From Candidatus Methylomirabilis sp. (GTDB lineage Bacteria > DYJV01), in NCBI GenBank assembly GCA_020722945.1, contig DYJV01000080.1:1-8831 (forward strand): 8,831 nt of DNA. Reading direction: 5' to 3'. How positions within the stretch are numbered: position 1 is the first letter of the stretch; the number at the start of each line of letters is the position of its first letter. Shown here piece by piece: positions 1,437 to 8,705 of the stretch. Below the pieces are notes generated by a model, which ran no database searches, was not told the origin of the DNA, and saw only the letters and a program-made list of their open reading frames with translations. The position numbers were made by a program, and so were the translations under genes.

Positions 1437-1465
1437 TTGACATAATATTTTTTCTCTGTTATCTG
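1437..1465 (+). promoter_or_regulatory. Predicted trp operon sigma-70 promoter with extended -10
   Basis: A perfect -35 box TTGACA lies at 1437-1442. A 17-nt spacer leads to TATCTG at 1460-1465, preceded by the extended -10 dinucleotide TG at 1457-1458 (TGTTATCTG). An A-rich stretch (AAAAAAATTTA, 1426-1436) directly upstream resembles an UP element. The -10 hexamer matches the consensus in only three positions, but the extended TG and ideal spacing compensate. Predicted transcription start is around 1471-1473, at the first AUG of the leader peptide. I see no TrpR-type operator overlapping it. Confidence 0.65.
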
Positions 1466-1471
1466 GCAAAA

Positions 1472-1531
1472 ATGATGACAAATATAAATACTCTTACAAC
1501 AAATTGGTGGTGGAATAGCAAAATGATTTAG
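1472..1531 (+). CDS. trpL: trp operon leader peptide (WWW), possibly leaderless
   Basis: A 19-codon frame starts at tandem ATG ATG and ends TAG at 1529-1531. It encodes MMTNINTLTTN, then three consecutive Trp codons (TGG at 1505, 1508 and 1511), then NSKMI. Three successive Trp codons in a 19-residue peptide placed between a promoter and a terminator hairpin ahead of trpE are the hallmark of ribosome-mediated attenuation. The peptide itself is not expected to have an enzymatic role. Its translation speed reports charged tRNA-Trp supply. No Shine-Dalgarno sequence is visible upstream, and the predicted transcript starts within a base or two of the first AUG, so initiation may be leaderless with either AUG used. 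Leaderless trpL is known from Sinorhizobium meliloti. The stop codon overlaps attenuator strand 2 by one base. Confidence 0.85.
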   Translation: MMTNINTLTTNWWWNSKMI

Positions 1532-1549
1532 GTCATCTATCACCAATTT
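1501..1549 (+). promoter_or_regulatory. Attenuator 1:2 hairpin pairing the Trp codons with strand 2
   Basis: Strand 1 (1501-1514, AAATTGGTGGTGGA), which contains the three Trp codons, pairs with strand 2 (1536-1549, TCTATCACCAATTT). The stem has 14 continuous pairs including two G-U wobbles, and the loop has 21 nt. In the standard model this is the pausing structure. When the leader is not translated, it occupies strand 2 and lets the 3:4 terminator form. Confidence 0.8.
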
Positions 1550-1579
1550 ACATATTTTGGGCTGTGTGGTTAGATGACC
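1531..1579 (+). promoter_or_regulatory. Attenuator 2:3 antiterminator
   Basis: GGTCATCTA (1531-1539) is perfectly complementary to TAGATGACC (1571-1579). After a single bulged U (1570), four more pairs join 1540-1543 to 1566-1569 (one of them G-U), giving 13 pairs in all. Formation uses the loop of the downstream terminator, the top of its 5' arm, and three bases of its 3' arm, so it should exclude 3:4. A ribosome stalled on codons 1505-1513 would cover strand 1 but leave 1531 onward free, favouring this structure and readthrough. A ribosome reaching the stop at 1529-1531 would mask strand 2. Confidence 0.8.
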
Positions 1580-1599
1580 ACACAGCCTTTTTTGTTTTT
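1560..1599 (+). terminator. Intrinsic terminator T1 (attenuator 3:4)
   Basis: GGCTGTGTGGT (1560-1570) pairs without mismatch with ACCACACAGCC (1577-1587), an 11-bp stem closed by a 6-nt loop (TAGATG). Six T residues follow (1588-1593), then G and five more T. This is a strong rho-independent terminator lying between the leader peptide and trpE. It is mutually exclusive with the 1531-1579 antiterminator. Confidence 0.9.
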
Positions 1600-1610
1600 A
1601 TGGGGCTGTG
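1581..1610 (+). promoter_or_regulatory. Predicted 4:5 anti-terminator pairing between T1 and T2
   Basis: CACAGCC (1581-1587, the 3' arm of T1) is complementary to GGCTGTG (1604-1610, the 5' arm of T2). Two further G-U pairs (1588-1589 with 1602-1603) extend it, and the loop is about 12 nt. It can coexist with the 2:3 antiterminator, which ends at 1579, but it excludes both T1 and T2. This would let release of strand 4 disarm the second terminator. It is weaker than T2 itself, so it would have to act kinetically, by forming before strand 6 is transcribed. Confidence 0.5.
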
Positions 1611-1636
1611 GAAGATTTTTCACAGTCCTTTTTTTT
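1603..1636 (+). terminator. Second tandem intrinsic terminator T2 in the trp leader
   Basis: GGGCTGTGGAA (1603-1613) pairs with TTTTCACAGTCC in the region 1618-1628, an 11-bp stem with two G-U wobbles and a 4-nt loop (GATT). Eight T residues follow (1629-1636). It resembles T1 in its arms (GGCTGTG/CACAG), suggesting a tandem duplication about 44 nt downstream. It ends 22 nt before the trpE Shine-Dalgarno sequence, so any transcript reaching trpE must read through two terminators. Confidence 0.85.
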
Positions 1637-1670: not shown

Positions 1671-3110
1671 TTGATAACACCATCTTTTGAAAAGTTACAA
1701 AATATAGTTGCTGATTATGACCGTATAACTTTTTACAAAGAAGTTGCTGGAGATATATTTACCCCTGTCTCTCTACTGAAGAGTTTTTCAAATGAAAAGT
1801 ATCTTGTTCTGCTTGAAAGCTCCAAGCTTGATAAGACATTCTCACGATTTTCATTCTTCTCTAAAAGTCCTAAAAATATAACCCTTTTTAAGGGTAATAG
1901 TGGTGACCCTATCTCGTATCTATCAGATAGATTAAAAGTAGAACGAGTATATTCAGGTATGGAGCTTGGAGATTTTACAGGTGGTTATGTAGGGTTTTTG
2001 GGGTATGAATCTGTAAATTATATAAATATTCTAAGAGGTAGAGTAAAAGAGTCATCAGACGATAATATTTCAGGTTTTATGGAGATTGACACCTTTTATG
2101 TATTTGATAACTACACCAACAAACTTTTTGCTGCGTGCAACTTAAAAGTTACCCCCTCTGTGTCTGATTTGTATAAAAATGGAGAAGACACTTTAAATCA
2201 CTTAATAGATGAGCTCTTTAACAAGAAGAATGAGTATTCAGGTAGAAGTGAGATTGTAGGAGAGCTTAATTTTGAAAAAGAGTATAACAGAGACGATTTT
2301 ATTGCTATTGTGAATAACATTAAGGGTGATATTGTTGATGGTGAGGTTATACAGACTGTTTTCTCAGAGAAATTTACTCTCAATCATAAGATCAATCCCA
2401 TTTCATTTTATAGGGCGATAAGGAATATTAACCCATCTCCGTATCTGTTTTACCTCAAATTTGATGATTTTGTTTTATTGGGTTCATCACCTGAAACTCA
2501 TCTTAAAGTTGAGAGGAATGTAGCCACACTCAAGCCTATTGCAGGGACATACCCTATTTCAGAAAATATAGATGAGAGCTGCTACCAACTCCTTAATGAC
2601 GAGAAGGAGCTTGCAGAACACCTTATGTTGCTCGACCTTGCAAGAAATGATCTTTATCAAGGGTGCCAAGAGAGTAGTGTTGAGGTGGTAAAAGGTTTTA
2701 CAACAGAGCAGTATTCACATGTTATTCATATTGTATCTGAGGTAAAGGGTGTTTTGATGGACGATGTTACCCCTTTTCAGCTTTTTTGTAAAACATTCCC
2801 TGCTGGAACAGTTTCAGGTGCTCCAAAGGTTAGAGCTATTGAGCTGATAGATAAGTATGAAAGTTCTACGAGGGGCTTTTATGCTGGATGTATAGGTTAT
2901 TTTGGATTTGATGGAAATCTTGATACTTGCATTACAATCAGGAGTGCTCTGGTTGAGAAGGATAAAGTTGTATTAAGAGCAGGTGCTGGAATTGTTGCTG
3001 ATAGCATTCCAGATAATGAGCTAAAAGAGGTTGAACGAAAGCTCGGTGCAATGTTTAAGGCTTTTGAAGTGATAAAAAATCTGGAGGAAAACAATGTTTT
3101 TATTAGTTGA
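1671..3110 (+). CDS. trpE: Anthranilate synthase component I
   Basis: Converts chorismate to anthranilate using ammonia delivered by TrpG; first committed step of tryptophan synthesis, in the cytoplasm. The predicted product is 479 residues from the TTG start. This is close to the usual length, and the N-terminus (ITPSFEKLQNIVADYDRITFYKEV) matches the family pattern. The N-terminal domain carries LLESS near residues 47-51, the motif that binds tryptophan for feedback inhibition. The chorismate-binding domain shows PIAGTYP (about 289), LMLLDLARNDL (about 317-327), the SHVIHIVSEVKG block with the active-site His (about 348-352), PAGTVSGAPK (about 377-386), then GFYAGCIGYFGFDG and LRAGAGIVADS. 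The common TRPRG-like segment after IAG is TYPIS here. The gene lies directly behind the tandem attenuator and its end overlaps trpG by 17 nt. TrpE rather than PabB is favoured by the trp operon, the Trp leader and the LLES motif. Confidence 0.97.
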   Translation: MITPSFEKLQNIVADYDRITFYKEVAGDIFTPVSLLKSFSNEKYLVLLESSKLDKTFSRFSFFSKSPKNITLFKGNSGDPISYLSDRLKVERVYSGMELGDFTGGYVGFLGYESVNYINILRGRVKESSDDNISGFMEIDTFYVFDNYTNKLFAACNLKVTPSVSDLYKNGEDTLNHLIDELFNKKNEYSGRSEIVGELNFEKEYNRDDFIAIVNNIKGDIVDGEVIQTVFSEKFTLNHKINPISFYRAIRNINPSPYLFYLKFDDFVLLGSSPETHLKVERNVATLKPIAGTYPISENIDESCYQLLNDEKELAEHLMLLDLARNDLYQGCQESSVEVVKGFTTEQYSHVIHIVSEVKGVLMDDVTPFQLFCKTFPAGTVSGAPKVRAIELIDKYESSTRGFYAGCIGYFGFDGNLDTCITIRSALVEKDKVVLRAGAGIVADSIPDNELKEVERKLGAMFKAFEVIKNLEENNVFIS

Positions 3111-3678
3111 TAACTACGACTCTTTCACATACAACCTTGCCGCACTTTTCAAAAAACTTGGTTGTGAGTTGACAATATTAAAAAATGACCAATTTGTTGA
3201 TTGTGAAAAATTTGAAGGAATTATTTTGTCACCTGGTCCTTCAAGCCCAGTAAATTCAGGGACTACCCTTAAATATATCAGTAAATACATCGGTTTGAAG
3301 CCAATTTTTGGTGTGTGTCTTGGGATGCAGGCAATAGGGTTCTCTTTAGGTTTTAAGATAAGGCACTCCAAAACTGTTATGCATGGGAAAGTTGATCAGA
3401 TAAATATTAAATCTCACAATTGTCTTTTTAAAGGAATTAAAAGTTTAAAAGCTGTAAGATACCACTCGCTTGCAGTTGATATTCCAAAGGAGCATCGGTA
3501 TGTCTCTGCTATTGCAAAATCTGATAGTGAGATAATGGCAATAGAGGATGTCAGTAAAGGTTTTTTTGCTGTTCAATTTCATCCTGAATCTTTTTTGAGT
3601 GAGTATGGTGATAAAATTGGAAAAAATTTTATAGATTTCTGTAAAATGAAAAATTTGGAGGGTAGAGATGGTAAGTAG
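3094..3678 (+). CDS. trpG: Anthranilate synthase component II, glutamine amidotransferase
   Basis: Class I glutamine amidotransferase that hydrolyses glutamine and channels ammonia to TrpE. At 194 residues it is normal for a stand-alone TrpG. The opening MFLLVDNYDSFTYNL is the standard family start. The oxyanion loop SPGPSSPVNSG (about 46-56) follows, then the nucleophile Cys75 in FGVCLGMQAIG, and His163 with Glu165 in QFHPESF complete the triad. Trp- and folate-pathway amidotransferases are often shared, so this protein may also serve PabB. The ATG is preceded by CTGGAGG inside the 3' end of trpE, so the two genes overlap by 17 nt and are probably translationally coupled, which would suit a fixed-ratio complex. 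The gene is not fused to trpD, unlike in enterobacteria. Confidence 0.97.
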   Translation: MFLLVDNYDSFTYNLAALFKKLGCELTILKNDQFVDCEKFEGIILSPGPSSPVNSGTTLKYISKYIGLKPIFGVCLGMQAIGFSLGFKIRHSKTVMHGKVDQINIKSHNCLFKGIKSLKAVRYHSLAVDIPKEHRYVSAIAKSDSEIMAIEDVSKGFFAVQFHPESFLSEYGDKIGKNFIDFCKMKNLEGRDGK

Positions 3679-4666
3679 TGTATTATCAAAATTATTTGAC
3701 AAAAAAGATCTTTCTATTGAGGAAACTCAAGTTTTGTTTGAAAAGATATTCAGTGGTGAGCTTAAAGATGTTGAAATTGCTGCTATACTTACTTCACTAA
3801 AATTAAAAGGTGAGGTTGTTGATGAAATTGCGGGTGCTATTCTTGCTGTGGACAGATTTAAAATAAAGGTCAAGAAGCATAAATCTCCTGCCATAGATAC
3901 TTGTGGGACAGGTGGTGATTACAAAAATTGTATAAATGTATCAACTGCTGTTGCAATACTTATGTCAGCAATTGGTGAGGAGGTTGTAAAGCATGGGAAT
4001 TCTGCACAGAGTGGTAAAATTGGTTCTGCTGATATTTTAAGAGAGTTTAATATCCCTTGTGATCTTCATAAAGATGAAGCAGAGAAATTTTTACAGAAGC
4101 ATAATTTTGTTTTCCTCTTTGCTCCATTTTATCACCCTGCAATGAAGTATGTTGCACCTATAAGAAAAGCATTAAAAACGAGGACAATTTTTAATTTTAT
4201 AGGTCCTTTTGTAAACCCTGCTGATCCAGAGATCCAGTTTACAGGTATCAGTAATTTAGATTCTATGAAAAAAATAGTTGATGCTCTTATAAAAGCAGGC
4301 AGAAAAGATATAGTTATCTATTCATCTTACGATGGTTACGATGAATTTTCTACAAATGCACCCACTGAATGTTATGAGATAAGGGAAGATTATGTCAAAA
4401 AATTTCGTATCAATCCAAACGATTTTTTTAAACCGTTTCAAATGCCTTTTGTATCAGATAAAGATGATGCAAAGAGTAAATTTTTAGATGGGATTTCAGG
4501 TGCTGATAAAAATCTTGCAAAGCTCATTTCACTCAACTCAATTTTGCCAATAAAGTATATTAAAGGTTTAAATTCATTTAAAGAAAGTTTTGATATAGCA
4601 ATGGATGCAATTTATTCAGGGTTGGTTCTTACAAAATTTAGAGAGCTTCAGATTGTAGGTTCTTGA
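3668..4666 (+). CDS. trpD: Anthranilate phosphoribosyltransferase
   Basis: Transfers phosphoribose from PRPP to anthranilate, giving phosphoribosylanthranilate. The 332-residue product has the usual length and order. There is a helical N-terminal domain, the PRPP loop DTCGTGGD (about 77-84), the KHGN block (108-111) and SGKIGSAD. Arg166, in PIRKALKTRTIFNFIGPFVNP, is the expected anthranilate-site arginine. The magnesium-binding Asp-Glu pair is at 225-226 (YDEFSTNAPTE). The usual KHGNR motif reads KHGNS here, and the following serine-rich stretch is SAQSGKIG rather than the common SSKSG type. The other nucleoside phosphoribosyltransferases of this fold do not fit the context as well. The start ATG follows GGAGGGTAGAG and overlaps the end of trpG by 11 nt. 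A 25-nt gap separates it from trpC. Confidence 0.96.
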   Translation: MVSSVLSKLFDKKDLSIEETQVLFEKIFSGELKDVEIAAILTSLKLKGEVVDEIAGAILAVDRFKIKVKKHKSPAIDTCGTGGDYKNCINVSTAVAILMSAIGEEVVKHGNSAQSGKIGSADILREFNIPCDLHKDEAEKFLQKHNFVFLFAPFYHPAMKYVAPIRKALKTRTIFNFIGPFVNPADPEIQFTGISNLDSMKKIVDALIKAGRKDIVIYSSYDGYDEFSTNAPTECYEIREDYVKKFRINPNDFFKPFQMPFVSDKDDAKSKFLDGISGADKNLAKLISLNSILPIKYIKGLNSFKESFDIAMDAIYSGLVLTKFRELQIVGS

Positions 4667-4691
4667 TTTTTCAATACAAAAAGGGAGTAAG

Positions 4692-5447
4692 ATGATAACA
4701 TTAGAAGATATTGTTGCAATCAAATATAAAGAGATAGAAGAGTTAGAATCTCTCCAAATAGAGAGAGAAAGGGTTGTTCATCCTCTAACAAATTTTATAA
4801 AGGACAAGCCTTTTATCTCAGAGATAAAAAAAAGTTCACCATCTATGGGGAGTATTGCTTTTAATCTCAATATTGAAGAGCAGGCTAAAAGTTACCAAAG
4901 ATATGGTGCAGGAGCTATAAGTGTTCTCACTGAAAAGAATTTCTTCTCAGGAAGCATAGATGATTTGATGAGAGTGGCTAAAGTGGTTGATATCCCTATT
5001 TTGTGCAAAGATTTTTTTCTAAATATAAAACAAGTTTTAAATGCTTATAATGCTGGTGCAGATGTTATTCTGATTATAGCCTCAATTCTTGACCAAGAGA
5101 GGATGGGAGTTCTTGTTTGTGAGGCAGAGAGGCTTGGTTTGTCAATTATATTTGAGATACATGAGATGGATGAGTTTGATAAAGTAAAAAATTTTAAGCC
5201 TCAATTTTTAGGAGTAAACAGCAGAGATTTAAAAAGTATGAAGATTGATAAGTTAAAATGTGCAGAAACAATCTCAAAATTGTCACAGAGTAAAGAGTTC
5301 TTTATAATTGCTGAAAGTGGAATAGAATCTGGTGATGATATAAAACTTTTTAGAAATGCAGGTGCTGATGCTTTCCTGATAGGGACATCACTTATGAGAA
5401 CAGATGACCTCAGAGGTAAGTTTGAGGAGTTTTACAGATGTTTGTAA
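4692..5447 (+). CDS. trpC: Indole-3-glycerol-phosphate synthase
   Basis: TIM-barrel enzyme that decarboxylates and closes carboxyphenylaminodeoxyribulose phosphate to indole-3-glycerol phosphate. The 251-residue length is typical of the monofunctional form. The expected catalytic and binding residues are visible: Glu44 and Lys46 in FISEIKKSSPSMG, Lys106 in ILCKDFF, Glu154 in IIFEIHEMDEF, Asn175 in GVNSRDL (usually GINNRDL), and Glu207-Ser208 in IAESGIESGDD. The phosphate-binding end GADAFLIGTSLMR is near residue 225. The ATG follows AAGGGAGTAAG. The 3' end overlaps trpF by 10 nt, so synthase and isomerase are separate but coupled proteins rather than the TrpCF fusion of enterobacteria. Confidence 0.97.
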   Translation: MITLEDIVAIKYKEIEELESLQIERERVVHPLTNFIKDKPFISEIKKSSPSMGSIAFNLNIEEQAKSYQRYGAGAISVLTEKNFFSGSIDDLMRVAKVVDIPILCKDFFLNIKQVLNAYNAGADVILIIASILDQERMGVLVCEAERLGLSIIFEIHEMDEFDKVKNFKPQFLGVNSRDLKSMKIDKLKCAETISKLSQSKEFFIIAESGIESGDDIKLFRNAGADAFLIGTSLMRTDDLRGKFEEFYRCL

Positions 5448-5986
5448 AAGTCTGTGGATTGAAAAATATAGAGCAGATTGATTGGGCTATTGAGTTGGGC
5501 TATGATGCTATTGGAGTTGTTGTTTACAAAGGCAGTAAAAGGTATGTTGGAGAATCAGCCGCATCTGATATCTTAAATTACTCATCTGGTAAGATAAAAA
5601 GTGTTGTTGTCAGTATGACTTTTGAAGATGTTGCTCCATATATTGATAAATGTGATTATTACCAAATTTATGATTCTGTCAATATTGATAATGAGAAATT
5701 TATATTTGCAACAGATAGTGAGAGAGATTTCAGTTTCTGTAAATATATTATTTACGATTCAAGTAAAGGTTCTGGTGTTTATACAGGTTTTCCAAAGTGG
5801 CTTAACAAATATAAAGATAAATTGATTATTGCAGGTGGTTTGAATATCAATAATGTAGTCCAAACACTCTCAGAAATAACCCCTTTTGGTATTGATATAT
5901 CAAGTGGAGTAGAGGGTAAAAATGGCAAAGATTTCTATCTTATGAAAAAATTTATTGAGAAAGTAAGGAAAGGAGAAGAGCATTGA
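5438..5986 (+). CDS. trpF: Phosphoribosylanthranilate isomerase (short, divergent)
   Basis: Amadori isomerase converting phosphoribosylanthranilate to its deoxyribulose form, the TrpC substrate. At 182 residues it is shorter than the usual roughly 200. The N-terminus [28 protein letters not shown] is clearly TrpF, with the general-base Cys6. Asp107 ([10 protein letters not shown]) sits where the catalytic general-acid aspartate of the LLD motif is expected. The C-terminal [11 protein letters not shown] and [15 protein letters not shown] (Asp153) are well conserved. The characteristic QLHG segment is replaced by QIYD (76-79), and the usual SPRYV reads GSKRYV. Both proposed catalytic residues remain, so I expect an active enzyme. 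The gene overlaps trpC by 10 nt and ends in TGA overlapping the TTG start of trpB (TTGA, 5983-5986). Confidence 0.93.
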
Positions 5987-7140
5987 AAGGATTTTATGGA
6001 AGTTATGGTGGACAATTTGTTGCAGAAACCCTTATTCCAGCTCTTGATAACCTTGAAAATGTATTTTTCAAGTTGAAAGAGGATGATGAATTTAATAAAA
6101 AAGTCAATTACTACCTTCAAAATTATGCTGGGCGACCCACACCTGTATATTTTGCAGAAAATTTGTCAAAAAAATATGGTATAGAGATATACTTAAAAAG
6201 GGAGGATCTACTCCATACAGGAGCCCACAAGATAAATAATACAATAGGGCAGGGGCTTATTGCAAAATATTCAGGGAAAAAGCGAGTCATTGCAGAGACA
6301 GGAGCAGGACAGCATGGACTTGCTACTGCAACAGTAGCAGCACTACTTGGATTAAAATGCACAATTTATATGGGTAGTATTGATATCAAGAGACAGCAGC
6401 CAAATGTAAAGAAGATGAAACTTCTTGGTGCTGAAGTTATTGAGGTGACAGAGGGGAGTCAGACTTTAAAAGATGCAACCAACCATGCACTAAAAGATTG
6501 GGTTACAAATGTTGAGAACACTCATTATATTATAGGTTCTGTTGTAGGTCCATACCCTTTTCCTGAAATAGTTGCACATTTTCAGAGTGTTATTGGCACT
6601 GAAGCGTTAGATTTTTTCAAAAATGGTAATATTATGCCCGATTATGTAATTGCATGTGTTGGTGGTGGGAGTAATGCAATAGGGATATTCAGGGCTTTTT
6701 TAAATGAAAATGTAAAACTTATAGGAGTTGAAGCAGGTGGTGTTTCTGATAAAGATGGGGGGAATGCAAAGACGTTAAATTTAGGTAGACCAGGTATACT
6801 GCATGGTGCACTTAGTTATCTTCTTCAGGATAAGAATTGTCAGGTTCTTCCTGTTCATTCAATATCCGCAGGCCTTGATTATCCGGGAGTTGGGCCTGAG
6901 CATTCATTTTTAAAAGATAGTGGAAGAGTTGAATATGTAAGTGTAAAGGATAAGGATGCACTTTATGCTTTTAGGGAGTTGTCTGTATCAGAGGGGATAA
7001 TCCCTGCTCTTGAATCGAGTCATGCACTTGCTTATCTACTTGTAAACAGAGATTTATTTAGAAACAGTAAAGTTCTGATAAATCTTTCAGGTAGAGGAGA
7101 TAAAGATTTTATTATTGTTCAAAACATATTAAATCTATAA
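5983..7140 (+). CDS. trpB: Tryptophan synthase beta chain
   Basis: PLP enzyme that condenses indole with L-serine to give L-tryptophan and forms an alpha2beta2 complex with TrpA. The 385-residue product is of the TrpB1 type. It opens [15 protein letters not shown], carries the PLP Schiff-base Lys83 in [12 protein letters not shown] and the catalytic Glu105 in AETGAGQHG, and has the phosphate loop GGGSNAIG (about 226-233). It ends with [17 protein letters not shown] and the COMM-domain region are intact, which argues for a partner-dependent rather than a stand-alone TrpB2 enzyme. The start is TTG at 5983, preceded by AAGGAAAGGAGAAG and overlapping the trpF stop codon. Eleven nt separate it from trpA. 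Confidence 0.98.
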
Positions 7141-7151
7141 AGGGGGCGGTT

Positions 7152-7856
7152 TTGAAAGGAATATATATCGTTGGTGGGTATCCTGATATGAGGACATTTG
7201 TGAAAGAGGTTGATATTATCAGTAAACTTGGCTTAGATTTTATAGAGATTGGAATACCTTTTTCTGAACCTGTTGCAGATGGTCCTGTTATAAGTTCTGC
7301 TATCCATGATTCTATAGAGGGTGGTATGACTACTAATAAGATACTTGATTTTGTGAAAACAGTTGATAGGAAAGTTATAAAGGTCTATATTATGACATAC
7401 AGTAATATTATATTTAGTTATGGACTTGAGAAGTTTTCAAAAGATTTTGGTAAATTTATAAATTCAGTGATTATTGCAGATCTCCCTAATAGAATGCACA
7501 GTTTCTTCTATGAAAAAGGTTTTACTATCCCTATAATTCCATTTGTTACCCCTGAAACAAGGGTTGAGGATATGAAACTGCTAAAAGAGAAAAAGGGTGA
7601 TTTTATATATTTTATAGGGATCAGGGGGGTTACAGGTGGTAATATGAATAGTAAAAAAGATGAAGTTGCCTCAAAAATTGCTGAATTGAGAAAGTTTACA
7701 AAGAAGAAAATTATTTTAGGATTTGGTCTAAAAAATAGAGATGATGCTCTTGAAGCCTTGAAGATAGCTGATGGATATGTAGTTGGCACTGAAGCTGTCA
7801 AACGACAGAAAGAACCTGATCTCTTTGAACAATTTATTTTTAATATTATAAAGTAA
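7152..7856 (+). CDS. trpA: Tryptophan synthase alpha chain (short N-terminus)
   Basis: TIM-barrel lyase splitting indole-3-glycerol phosphate into indole, passed by tunnel to TrpB, and glyceraldehyde 3-phosphate. Both catalytic residues are seen in the signature block: Glu32 in FIEIGIPFSEP and Asp43 in VADGP, with the 11-residue spacing of Glu49/Asp60 in the E. coli enzyme. Loop 6 reads YFIGIRGVTGGN, and the phosphate-binding end has LGFGL and VVGTEAVK (commonly GSAIVK). At 234 residues it is about 30 shorter than E. coli TrpA, with some 17 residues missing at the N-terminus, so the protein begins directly at the first barrel strand. Short archaeal TrpAs are similar. The TTG start is chosen because AAAGGGGGCGG lies just upstream. 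The signature FSDP is FSEP here. Confidence 0.95.
   Translation: MKGIYIVGGYPDMRTFVKEVDIISKLGLDFIEIGIPFSEPVADGPVISSAIHDSIEGGMTTNKILDFVKTVDRKVIKVYIMTYSNIIFSYGLEKFSKDFGKFINSVIIADLPNRMHSFFYEKGFTIPIIPFVTPETRVEDMKLLKEKKGDFIYFIGIRGVTGGNMNSKKDEVASKIAELRKFTKKKIILGFGLKNRDDALEALKIADGYVVGTEAVKRQKEPDLFEQFIFNIIK
7825..7852 (+). promoter_or_regulatory. Possible internal promoter ahead of the aldolase gene
   Basis: TTGAAC (7825-7830) and TATAAA (7847-7852) are separated by 16 nt and lie in the last codons of trpA. The predicted start is near 7859, giving a short untranslated region before the aldolase. Such a promoter would let the aldolase be made when the trp attenuator is closed. In AT-rich DNA chance matches are common. 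Confidence 0.3.
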
Positions 7857-7892
7857 AATTTTGAATAGTAAAATTTTTTTTTGGGGGTCAAG

Positions 7893-8705
7893 ATGTTTGG
7901 CAAAAGTATTAGATTTCAAAGGATAAAAGATAGAAAGAGTGGTAGATTTATTCTCCTTCCTCTCGATCATGGAGTCTCTGTTGGTCCGATAGATGGAATT
8001 GCTAATATAAAGAGTGTTGTAAAATGTGCATCAAATGGTGGTGCTACCGGTGTTATACTTCATAAAGGACTTGTTCAGCACAGTTTCTCTGATACTTCAA
8101 TTAATACAGGGTTGATAGTTCATCTATCTGCATCAACTTCTTTTTCACCGTATCCCAACTCAAAGATAACTGTTTGTAGTGTTGAGGAAGCTATAAGACT
8201 TGGTGCTGATGCGGTCTCAGTTCATGTAAACCTTGGAGATCTAAATGAACGGGAGATGCTTGCTCAATTTGGTAAAGCAGCAGAATCTGCGTCTATCTGG
8301 GGTCTACCTCTTCTTGCAATGGTCTATGCAAGGGGTGAAAAGATAAAGAGTAGTTATGAACCTGATACTATTGCACATTGTGCAAGAGTTGCTGCAGAGC
8401 TCGGTGCAGATGTTGTAAAAGTATCTTATACAGGGGATCGAGAGTCTTTTAGAAATGTTGTTGATTCAACCCCTATACCTGTGGTAATTGCTGGTGGTGA
8501 AAAGATAGATAGTGAAGAGAAACTTTTAAAGATGGTTGAGGATTCAATTTCAGCAGGTGGAGCAGGTATTTCGATAGGACGAAATATATTTCAAGCAAGA
8601 AATCCTCGCAAGATGTTGTTAGCTCTTGGTATGATAGTCAGAGATCATAAAACAAGTGGGGAGGCTTTTGATTTTTTAACAAATGATTCGGCGGAAGTGG
8701 AGTAA
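7893..8705 (+). CDS. DeoC/LacD-family aldolase, probable 2-amino-3,7-dideoxy-D-threo-hept-6-ulosonate (ADTH) synthase
   Basis: The 270-residue TIM-barrel aldolase closely resembles, from memory, the Methanocaldococcus MJ0400 group. That enzyme condenses 6-deoxy-5-ketofructose 1-phosphate with L-aspartate semialdehyde, the first step of the DAHP-independent route to 3-dehydroquinate. Key residues are Asp25 in LLPLDHGVSVGP, Tyr145 in MVYARGEKI, and the Schiff-base Lys176 in DVVKVSYTGD. The 25/145/176 spacing equals that of Asp33/Tyr153/Lys184 in MJ0400. Other matching blocks are GGATGVILHKGLVQHS, LIVHLSASTSFSP, AIRLGADAVSVHVN and GISIGRNIFQ. The ATG at 7893 is preferred because GGGGGTC lies 5 nt upstream. 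The in-frame TTG at 7881 overlaps that site. It sits 36 nt after trpA, same strand, so aromatic biosynthesis is the likely role. Class I fructose-bisphosphate aldolase activity cannot be excluded. Confidence 0.85.
   Translation: MFGKSIRFQRIKDRKSGRFILLPLDHGVSVGPIDGIANIKSVVKCASNGGATGVILHKGLVQHSFSDTSINTGLIVHLSASTSFSPYPNSKITVCSVEEAIRLGADAVSVHVNLGDLNEREMLAQFGKAAESASIWGLPLLAMVYARGEKIKSSYEPDTIAHCARVAAELGADVVKVSYTGDRESFRNVVDSTPIPVVIAGGEKIDSEEKLLKMVEDSISAGGAGISIGRNIFQARNPRKMLLALGMIVRDHKTSGEAFDFLTNDSAEVE

Follow-up and report, generated by a model that had tools for sequence, protein, structure and literature searches.

Organisation of the locus

The window, that is, the whole 8,831-nt stretch of DNA analysed here, is an entire contig (G000:C150), and its source phylum holds just two genomes in the searched set. 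On the plus strand it carries a tryptophan biosynthesis operon that is closed by a gene for 2-amino-3,7-dideoxy-D-threo-hept-6-ulosonate synthase (7881-8705), the entry step of an alternative aromatic pathway. The leader upstream of trpE and the operon itself comprise the following features:

1437-1465, plus strand: candidate promoter, TTGACA-17-TATCTG, read by eye and absent from the sites listed by a consensus scan
1472-1531, plus strand: leader peptide ORF of 19 codons by translation (MMTNINTLTTNWWWNSKMI, then stop), with TGG TGG TGG (WWW) at 1505-1513
1501-1514, plus strand: strand 1, which holds the Trp codons; 14 of 14 positions pair with 1536-1549 (1:2 hairpin, -16.9 kcal/mol)
1531-1549, plus strand: strand 2, whose partner is strand 1 (through 1536-1549) or strand 3 (through 1531-1545)
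1559-1588, plus strand: terminator T1, formed by strands 3 and 4 (stem 1559-1571/1576-1588, with a T tract that reaches 1593; -23.1 kcal/mol)
1576-1589, plus strand: strand 4, the 3' arm of T1, with strand 5 as alternative partner (pair check and energies)
1602-1613, plus strand: strand 5, the 5' arm of T2, of which 1602-1610 pairs with 1581-1589
1602-1636, plus strand: terminator T2, formed by strands 5 and 6 (stem 1602-1613/1618-1629, with a run of eight T, 1629-1636; -16.5 kcal/mol)
1671-3110, plus strand: trpE, read from the sequence, with a TTG start preceded by AGGAGG (together 1659-1673)
1671-8705, plus strand: the regulated operon, trpE-trpG-trpD-trpC-trpF-trpB-trpA and the synthase gene

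As in other ribosome-mediated trp attenuators, a short ORF with tandem Trp codons precedes trp biosynthesis genes, the 1:2, 2:3 and 3:4 pairings are mutually exclusive and 3:4 is an intrinsic terminator. The 2:3 helix consists of 1531-1539/1571-1579, which a bulged stretch extends to about 1545/1565 (-17.8 kcal/mol). In an Rfam scan of the window no family attained its gathering threshold, Trp_leader included. Judged from the sequence, the leader is thus a ribosome-mediated trp attenuator by anatomy and not an Rfam Trp_leader by score. The candidate promoter would start the transcript a few bases before the leader ATG, which would make the leader peptide near-leaderless. Both this leader (1437-1475) and one in the phylum-mate G001 (L003, about 3720-3757, minus strand) open with ATGATG a few bases past promoter-like sequence, suggesting near-leaderless leader peptides in the two genomes.

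A terminator scan of the plus strand of the window found two terminator-like sites, T1 and T2, which are 13 nt apart; T1 is the stronger hairpin and has its own T tract. The WWW leader peptide, the four-strand attenuator and the second terminator with eight T described in the initial annotation were all recovered by translation, pair check, scan and energies. The complementarity that it had placed between the two terminators (1581-1587/1604-1610, 7 bp) is real and extends slightly further, to 9 bp (1581-1589/1602-1610, with seven Watson-Crick and two G-U pairs), and this 4:5 pairing has an energy of -13.6 kcal/mol as a hairpin and -15.3 kcal/mol as a duplex.

A small ORF runs over T2, from an ATG at 1600 to a TAA at 1668 (MGLWKIFHSPFFWSFYGLFLGG, then stop), and contains two Trp codons. 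It is open and begins just before T2, so that its translation might be thought to open the terminator. We consider this highly improbable: the upstream sequence (TTTTTGTTTTTATG) has no Shine-Dalgarno motif, the ORF is missing from most other leaders, in which strand 5 comes after TTTAA or similar, and ribosomes translating it would also open T2 when Trp is in excess.

Elsewhere in the window, the stretch 240-727 is apparently richer in G+C than its flanks and carries, on the minus strand, part of a gene for a PPOX-class F420-dependent oxidoreductase. It looks misplaced next to the AT-rich trp operon and may have been acquired recently or be a contaminant, contamination of the bin standing at 5.8%. 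An inverted repeat (CCACCCCTCCATAGAGGGG/CCCCTCTACGGAGGGGTGG, at 1085-1110 and 1243-1262) encloses about 130 bp and is followed by GGACGGGGTG; in appearance it is a short repeat of the mobile or REP-like kind, and a comparable GACGGGGTG stretch occurs in L063 near 14430.

A proposed switch over two terminators

We propose that the leader is a ribosome-mediated Trp attenuator in which two intrinsic terminators in series answer to one sensing event, a reading that we think rather probable. When charged tRNA-Trp is ample, or when no ribosome is present, 3:4 would form, giving T1 and locking strand 4; strand 5 would then be free, 5:6 would give T2, and polymerases leaking past T1 would meet a second stop. 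When a ribosome stalls on the Trp codons, 2:3 would form and leave strand 4 free, and strand 5, on leaving the polymerase, would pair with strand 4 before strand 6 is synthesised. The 4:5 helix would delay T2 and stabilise the 2:3 state, and both terminators would be disarmed, in the case of T2 at least in part. Since a T2 in constant operation would keep the operon silent, we infer that there must be a route past it. The purpose of the arrangement may be low basal read-through: no match to a Trp repressor was found in the source genome or in G001, an absence that would fit the need for a tight RNA switch. In both of these genomes hisG and leuA closely follow other genes (his and leuA-type loci, judged by gene layout).

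Co-transcriptional folding of the leader

The order of folding was modelled with a co-transcriptional master equation over locally optimal structures with findpath barriers, adding one base per step at 30 nt/s, with a rate prefactor of 2e5 per second in standard runs; polymerase shielding, pausing and NusA lie outside the model. When the ribosome was held at the Trp codons, T1 was 0, 2:3 was 1.00 and 4:5, which arose immediately on the emergence of strand 5, was 0.89-0.94, and T2 was 0.06-0.11 at stem completion, the spread coming from differing limits on the states kept. If 4:5 was forbidden by an energy penalty, T2 in the stalled run was 1.00, and T1 and T2 were both 1.00 in runs with no ribosome or with one placed at the stop codon. 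The simulation therefore returned the two states that the initial annotation had predicted, namely 2:3 with 4:5 on stalling (T2 at 6-11%) and T1 with T2 when Trp is supplied.

The fate of T2 under stalling varied with the prefactor: it stayed at zero at 2e4, was 0.70 at stem completion and 0.96 two bases later at 2e6 (a tenfold increase), and reached 99% at 2e7. The 2:3 antiterminator held at every setting tried. At equilibrium in the window, T1 together with T2 is favoured, and 5:6 is more stable than 4:5. In the model, the disarming of T2 in the window is kinetic and incomplete, and starvation probably delays T2 rather than abolishing it, because the disarming fades at higher prefactor and T1 with T2 win at equilibrium. 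The relay as first annotated, in which stalling disarms both terminators, thus stands as a scheme that is coherent in the co-transcriptional model and whose layout is kept in independent leaders; what needs qualifying is a T2 switched off outright, given the tenfold change in rate at which the effect fades and the equilibrium state.

That T2 is thermodynamically favoured over 4:5 also speaks for the main rival to the relay, in which T2 is a back-up terminator, a duplicate of T1 that lowers the leak in Trp excess, and 4:5 is a by-product of the duplication with little effect, T2 being leaky. The two terminator units have in common GGCTGTG...CACAG and a TTTTTATGG tail, with P 0.03 for their local alignment, and tandem terminators are generally ordinary. 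We nonetheless consider a back-up unlikely, since starved cells could not express the operon past a T2 that is strong and unconditional and since the comparative evidence given below bears against it.

Chance and recurrence of the layout

The 4:5 match was rarely equalled by chance in the source genome. When the T2 5' arm was shuffled, 1.2% of trials gave a 4:5 energy as good as that observed, and of 90 terminator 5' arms taken from 206 kb of this genome none paired with strand 4 at -15.3 or better, while random terminator pairs attained 4:5-level pairing in 0.5% of cases. Tandem terminator pairs less than 30 nt apart numbered just 2 in these 206 kb.

The plasmid collection gave no match, and a scan of named genome contigs for relatives returned distant trpE only. 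The same layout was nevertheless observed upstream of trpE in at least three other phyla, as two terminators behind a leader peptide that contains WW or WWW, the 3' arm of T1 being complementary to the 5' arm of T2. The phyla of the source genome, G045 and G022 are distinct, each having been searched as fully as the collection allows, and the class of G046 lies outside all three; the layout is therefore present in at least four phyla, including that of the window. In the phylum of G022 it occurs in 5/5 trpE-bearing genomes from two families. The G046 leader (MIQNWWWPAAFDAM, then stop) has two terminators with complementary T1 3' and T2 5' arms, and is one of 11 two-terminator leaders in its class (G046 and ten more), spread over several families; other families of this class carry a single terminator. 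The G045 leader likewise has two terminators with 4:5, its peptide (...WNNMGGLPRG, then stop) being truncated by the contig end. G032 and G179, which could share the phylum of G046, show the same layout with different sequences. L200 and L208 are possible further cases with an ambiguous T1/T2 assignment, L200 probably being misassigned, and single-terminator Trp leaders are found in other phyla (for example L169, L203, L205, L207 and L210). In the single-terminator leaders L100, L101, L103 and L112 of the G046 class, Trp codons occur among numerous Tyr and Phe codons (as in NFGFWFWYWYYYY), which suggests broader aromatic sensing.

Modelled under starvation, 4:5 reached at least 0.93 in L091, L092, L093, L094, L096, L098, L099, L108, L123, L144 and L146 (dropping to 0.42 two bases later in L096) and only 0.61 in L095; forbidding 4:5 brought T2 to 1.00 in L092, L094 and L108. 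A clean relay was absent from the model runs of L097, L132, L142, L145 and L198, with T2 coexisting with partial 4:5 in L132. Some of these outcomes hinge on where the edge of the stalled ribosome is placed, those of L123 and L132 having changed with its position.

Maintenance of the 4:5 pairing

Cognate strands 4 and 5 pair better than strands swapped between leaders. Across 14 leaders, with kinship left in, the energies were -17.0 for cognate versus -13.3 kcal/mol for swapped pairs, and 0 of 20,000 permutations were as good; for seven group representatives, one of which is the probably misassigned L200, contributing nothing, they were -17.9 versus -12.9 kcal/mol (exact P 0.0008). Within the order of G046, 94/96 4:5 cells pair (97.9%). 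One position there is altered on both sides, from U-A to C-G, and at five others just one partner differs (for instance G replaced by A opposite U, or C by U opposite G), most of these one-sided changes being G-U-compatible. The covariation count for 4:5 in this order was not above shuffles (119 of 500), because the strands vary little, and 5:6 and 3:4 outperform 4:5 in the same count. All 5 trpE-bearing genomes of the G022 phylum have the same strand 5 (GGCCGTGGG, nine invariant bases), and strand 6 varies among them.

These patterns argue against T2 as a simple back-up terminator, in that the complementarity of strand 5 to strand 4 is kept across several families and phyla despite different arms, and in that, of the two T2 arms in the G022 phylum, strand 5 is the better conserved. 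The between-group result for 4:5 could also be imitated if T1 had been duplicated repeatedly; long retention within groups is not easily explained in this way.

Two attenuators in series in G001

The compact two-terminator layout is absent from G001, the sole other genome of the source phylum. This genome has two complete Trp attenuators in series (L003, 3380-3730 and 2960-3110, minus strand), each comprising a separate leader peptide (MMKNNYWWSWWK... and MIIQNSTWCWWWNN...) and one terminator, the terminators having a common GCCGTGGG/CCCACGGC core. The other member of the phylum therefore also places two Trp-controlled terminators in series, by a different route. The second G001 leader has a Shine-Dalgarno motif, unlike the leader with the ATGATG start. 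Between the two attenuators lie matches to RelB-like and ParE_toxin (ParE-like) genes, and this toxin-antitoxin pair appears, from its position, to be under Trp attenuation.

The G001 arrangement raises the possibility that T2 in the window is the leftover of a second complete Trp attenuator. The 13 nt between T1 and T2 and the lack of any trace there of a second leader peptide with a Shine-Dalgarno motif make such an origin improbable, as does the recurrence of the compact layout in other phyla. It would in any case be an account of history and not a competing mechanism, and it could hold alongside the relay.

Relation to known attenuators

The relay proposed here has counterparts in known systems. 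With the classical trp attenuator (E. coli trpL type; Rfam Trp_leader) the window leader has in common the Trp-rich leader peptide, strands 1-4, the 2:3 antiterminator and the 3:4 terminator before trpE, to which it adds T2 and the alternative 4:5. Models of attenuation based on E. coli trp describe a four-strand switch with basal read-through of 10-15% (PMC1183508). The his leader of enteric bacteria has six strands, which fold as AB/CD/EF versus BC/DE, and a stalled ribosome triggers B:C and then D:E (PMC10989985); Elf and Ehrenberg argued that, in an operon whose only control is attenuation, the extra his hairpin reduces basal read-through (PMC1183508). The six-strand relay is shared, in that the fourth strand of the window leader can pair with the fifth to the exclusion of the last terminator (in the window, kinetically only). 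In his, however, a U run follows E:F only, whereas in the window both 3:4 and 5:6 are terminators and the amino acid is Trp.

The ermK attenuator is summarised as ribosome-mediated, with a pair of Rho-independent terminators next to each other (PMC4335068, which cites Kwak et al., 1991). At that level of description it shares leader-peptide stalling over two adjacent terminators, and it differs in that stalling is macrolide-induced and the gene confers resistance, whereas the window has a Trp sensor and a trp operon. The rimP leader of Gammaproteobacteria has two terminators in tandem, with arm motifs that are inverse, and possibly an antiterminator (PMC2965389); the tandem terminators are shared, and differ in being described with no Trp leader peptide, before another gene and probably under another signal. 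By analogy, the window leader would work mechanistically like the his relay with its middle hairpin turned into a terminator, or like ermK with a Trp sensor.

A literature search for tandem or double terminators with trp attenuation, which took in few subscription journals, found no described trp leader of this arrangement. The earlier remark that no such trp leader was known may stand, but the six-strand relay itself is established in his, and two adjacent terminators in ermK.

Implications

The window leader is probably a real and little-noticed variant of the classic tryptophan attenuator, because the same layout recurs with different sequences in several other phyla. That these leaders form a widespread, undescribed class of trp attenuator, in which one stall would switch two terminators in series through 2:3 and 4:5 and give a low basal level and a steep response with no Trp repressor, is a plausible but tentative proposal, about which we retain slightly more doubt than conviction. 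Annotation should check for a second terminator past trp attenuators. The window leader offers a clean test case for control by kinetic rather than equilibrium RNA folding, and a double-terminator trp leader would unite the his and ermK designs in one scheme. If recurrent, the double-terminator version would show how leak can be lowered and the response steepened by RNA alone, without a Trp repressor.
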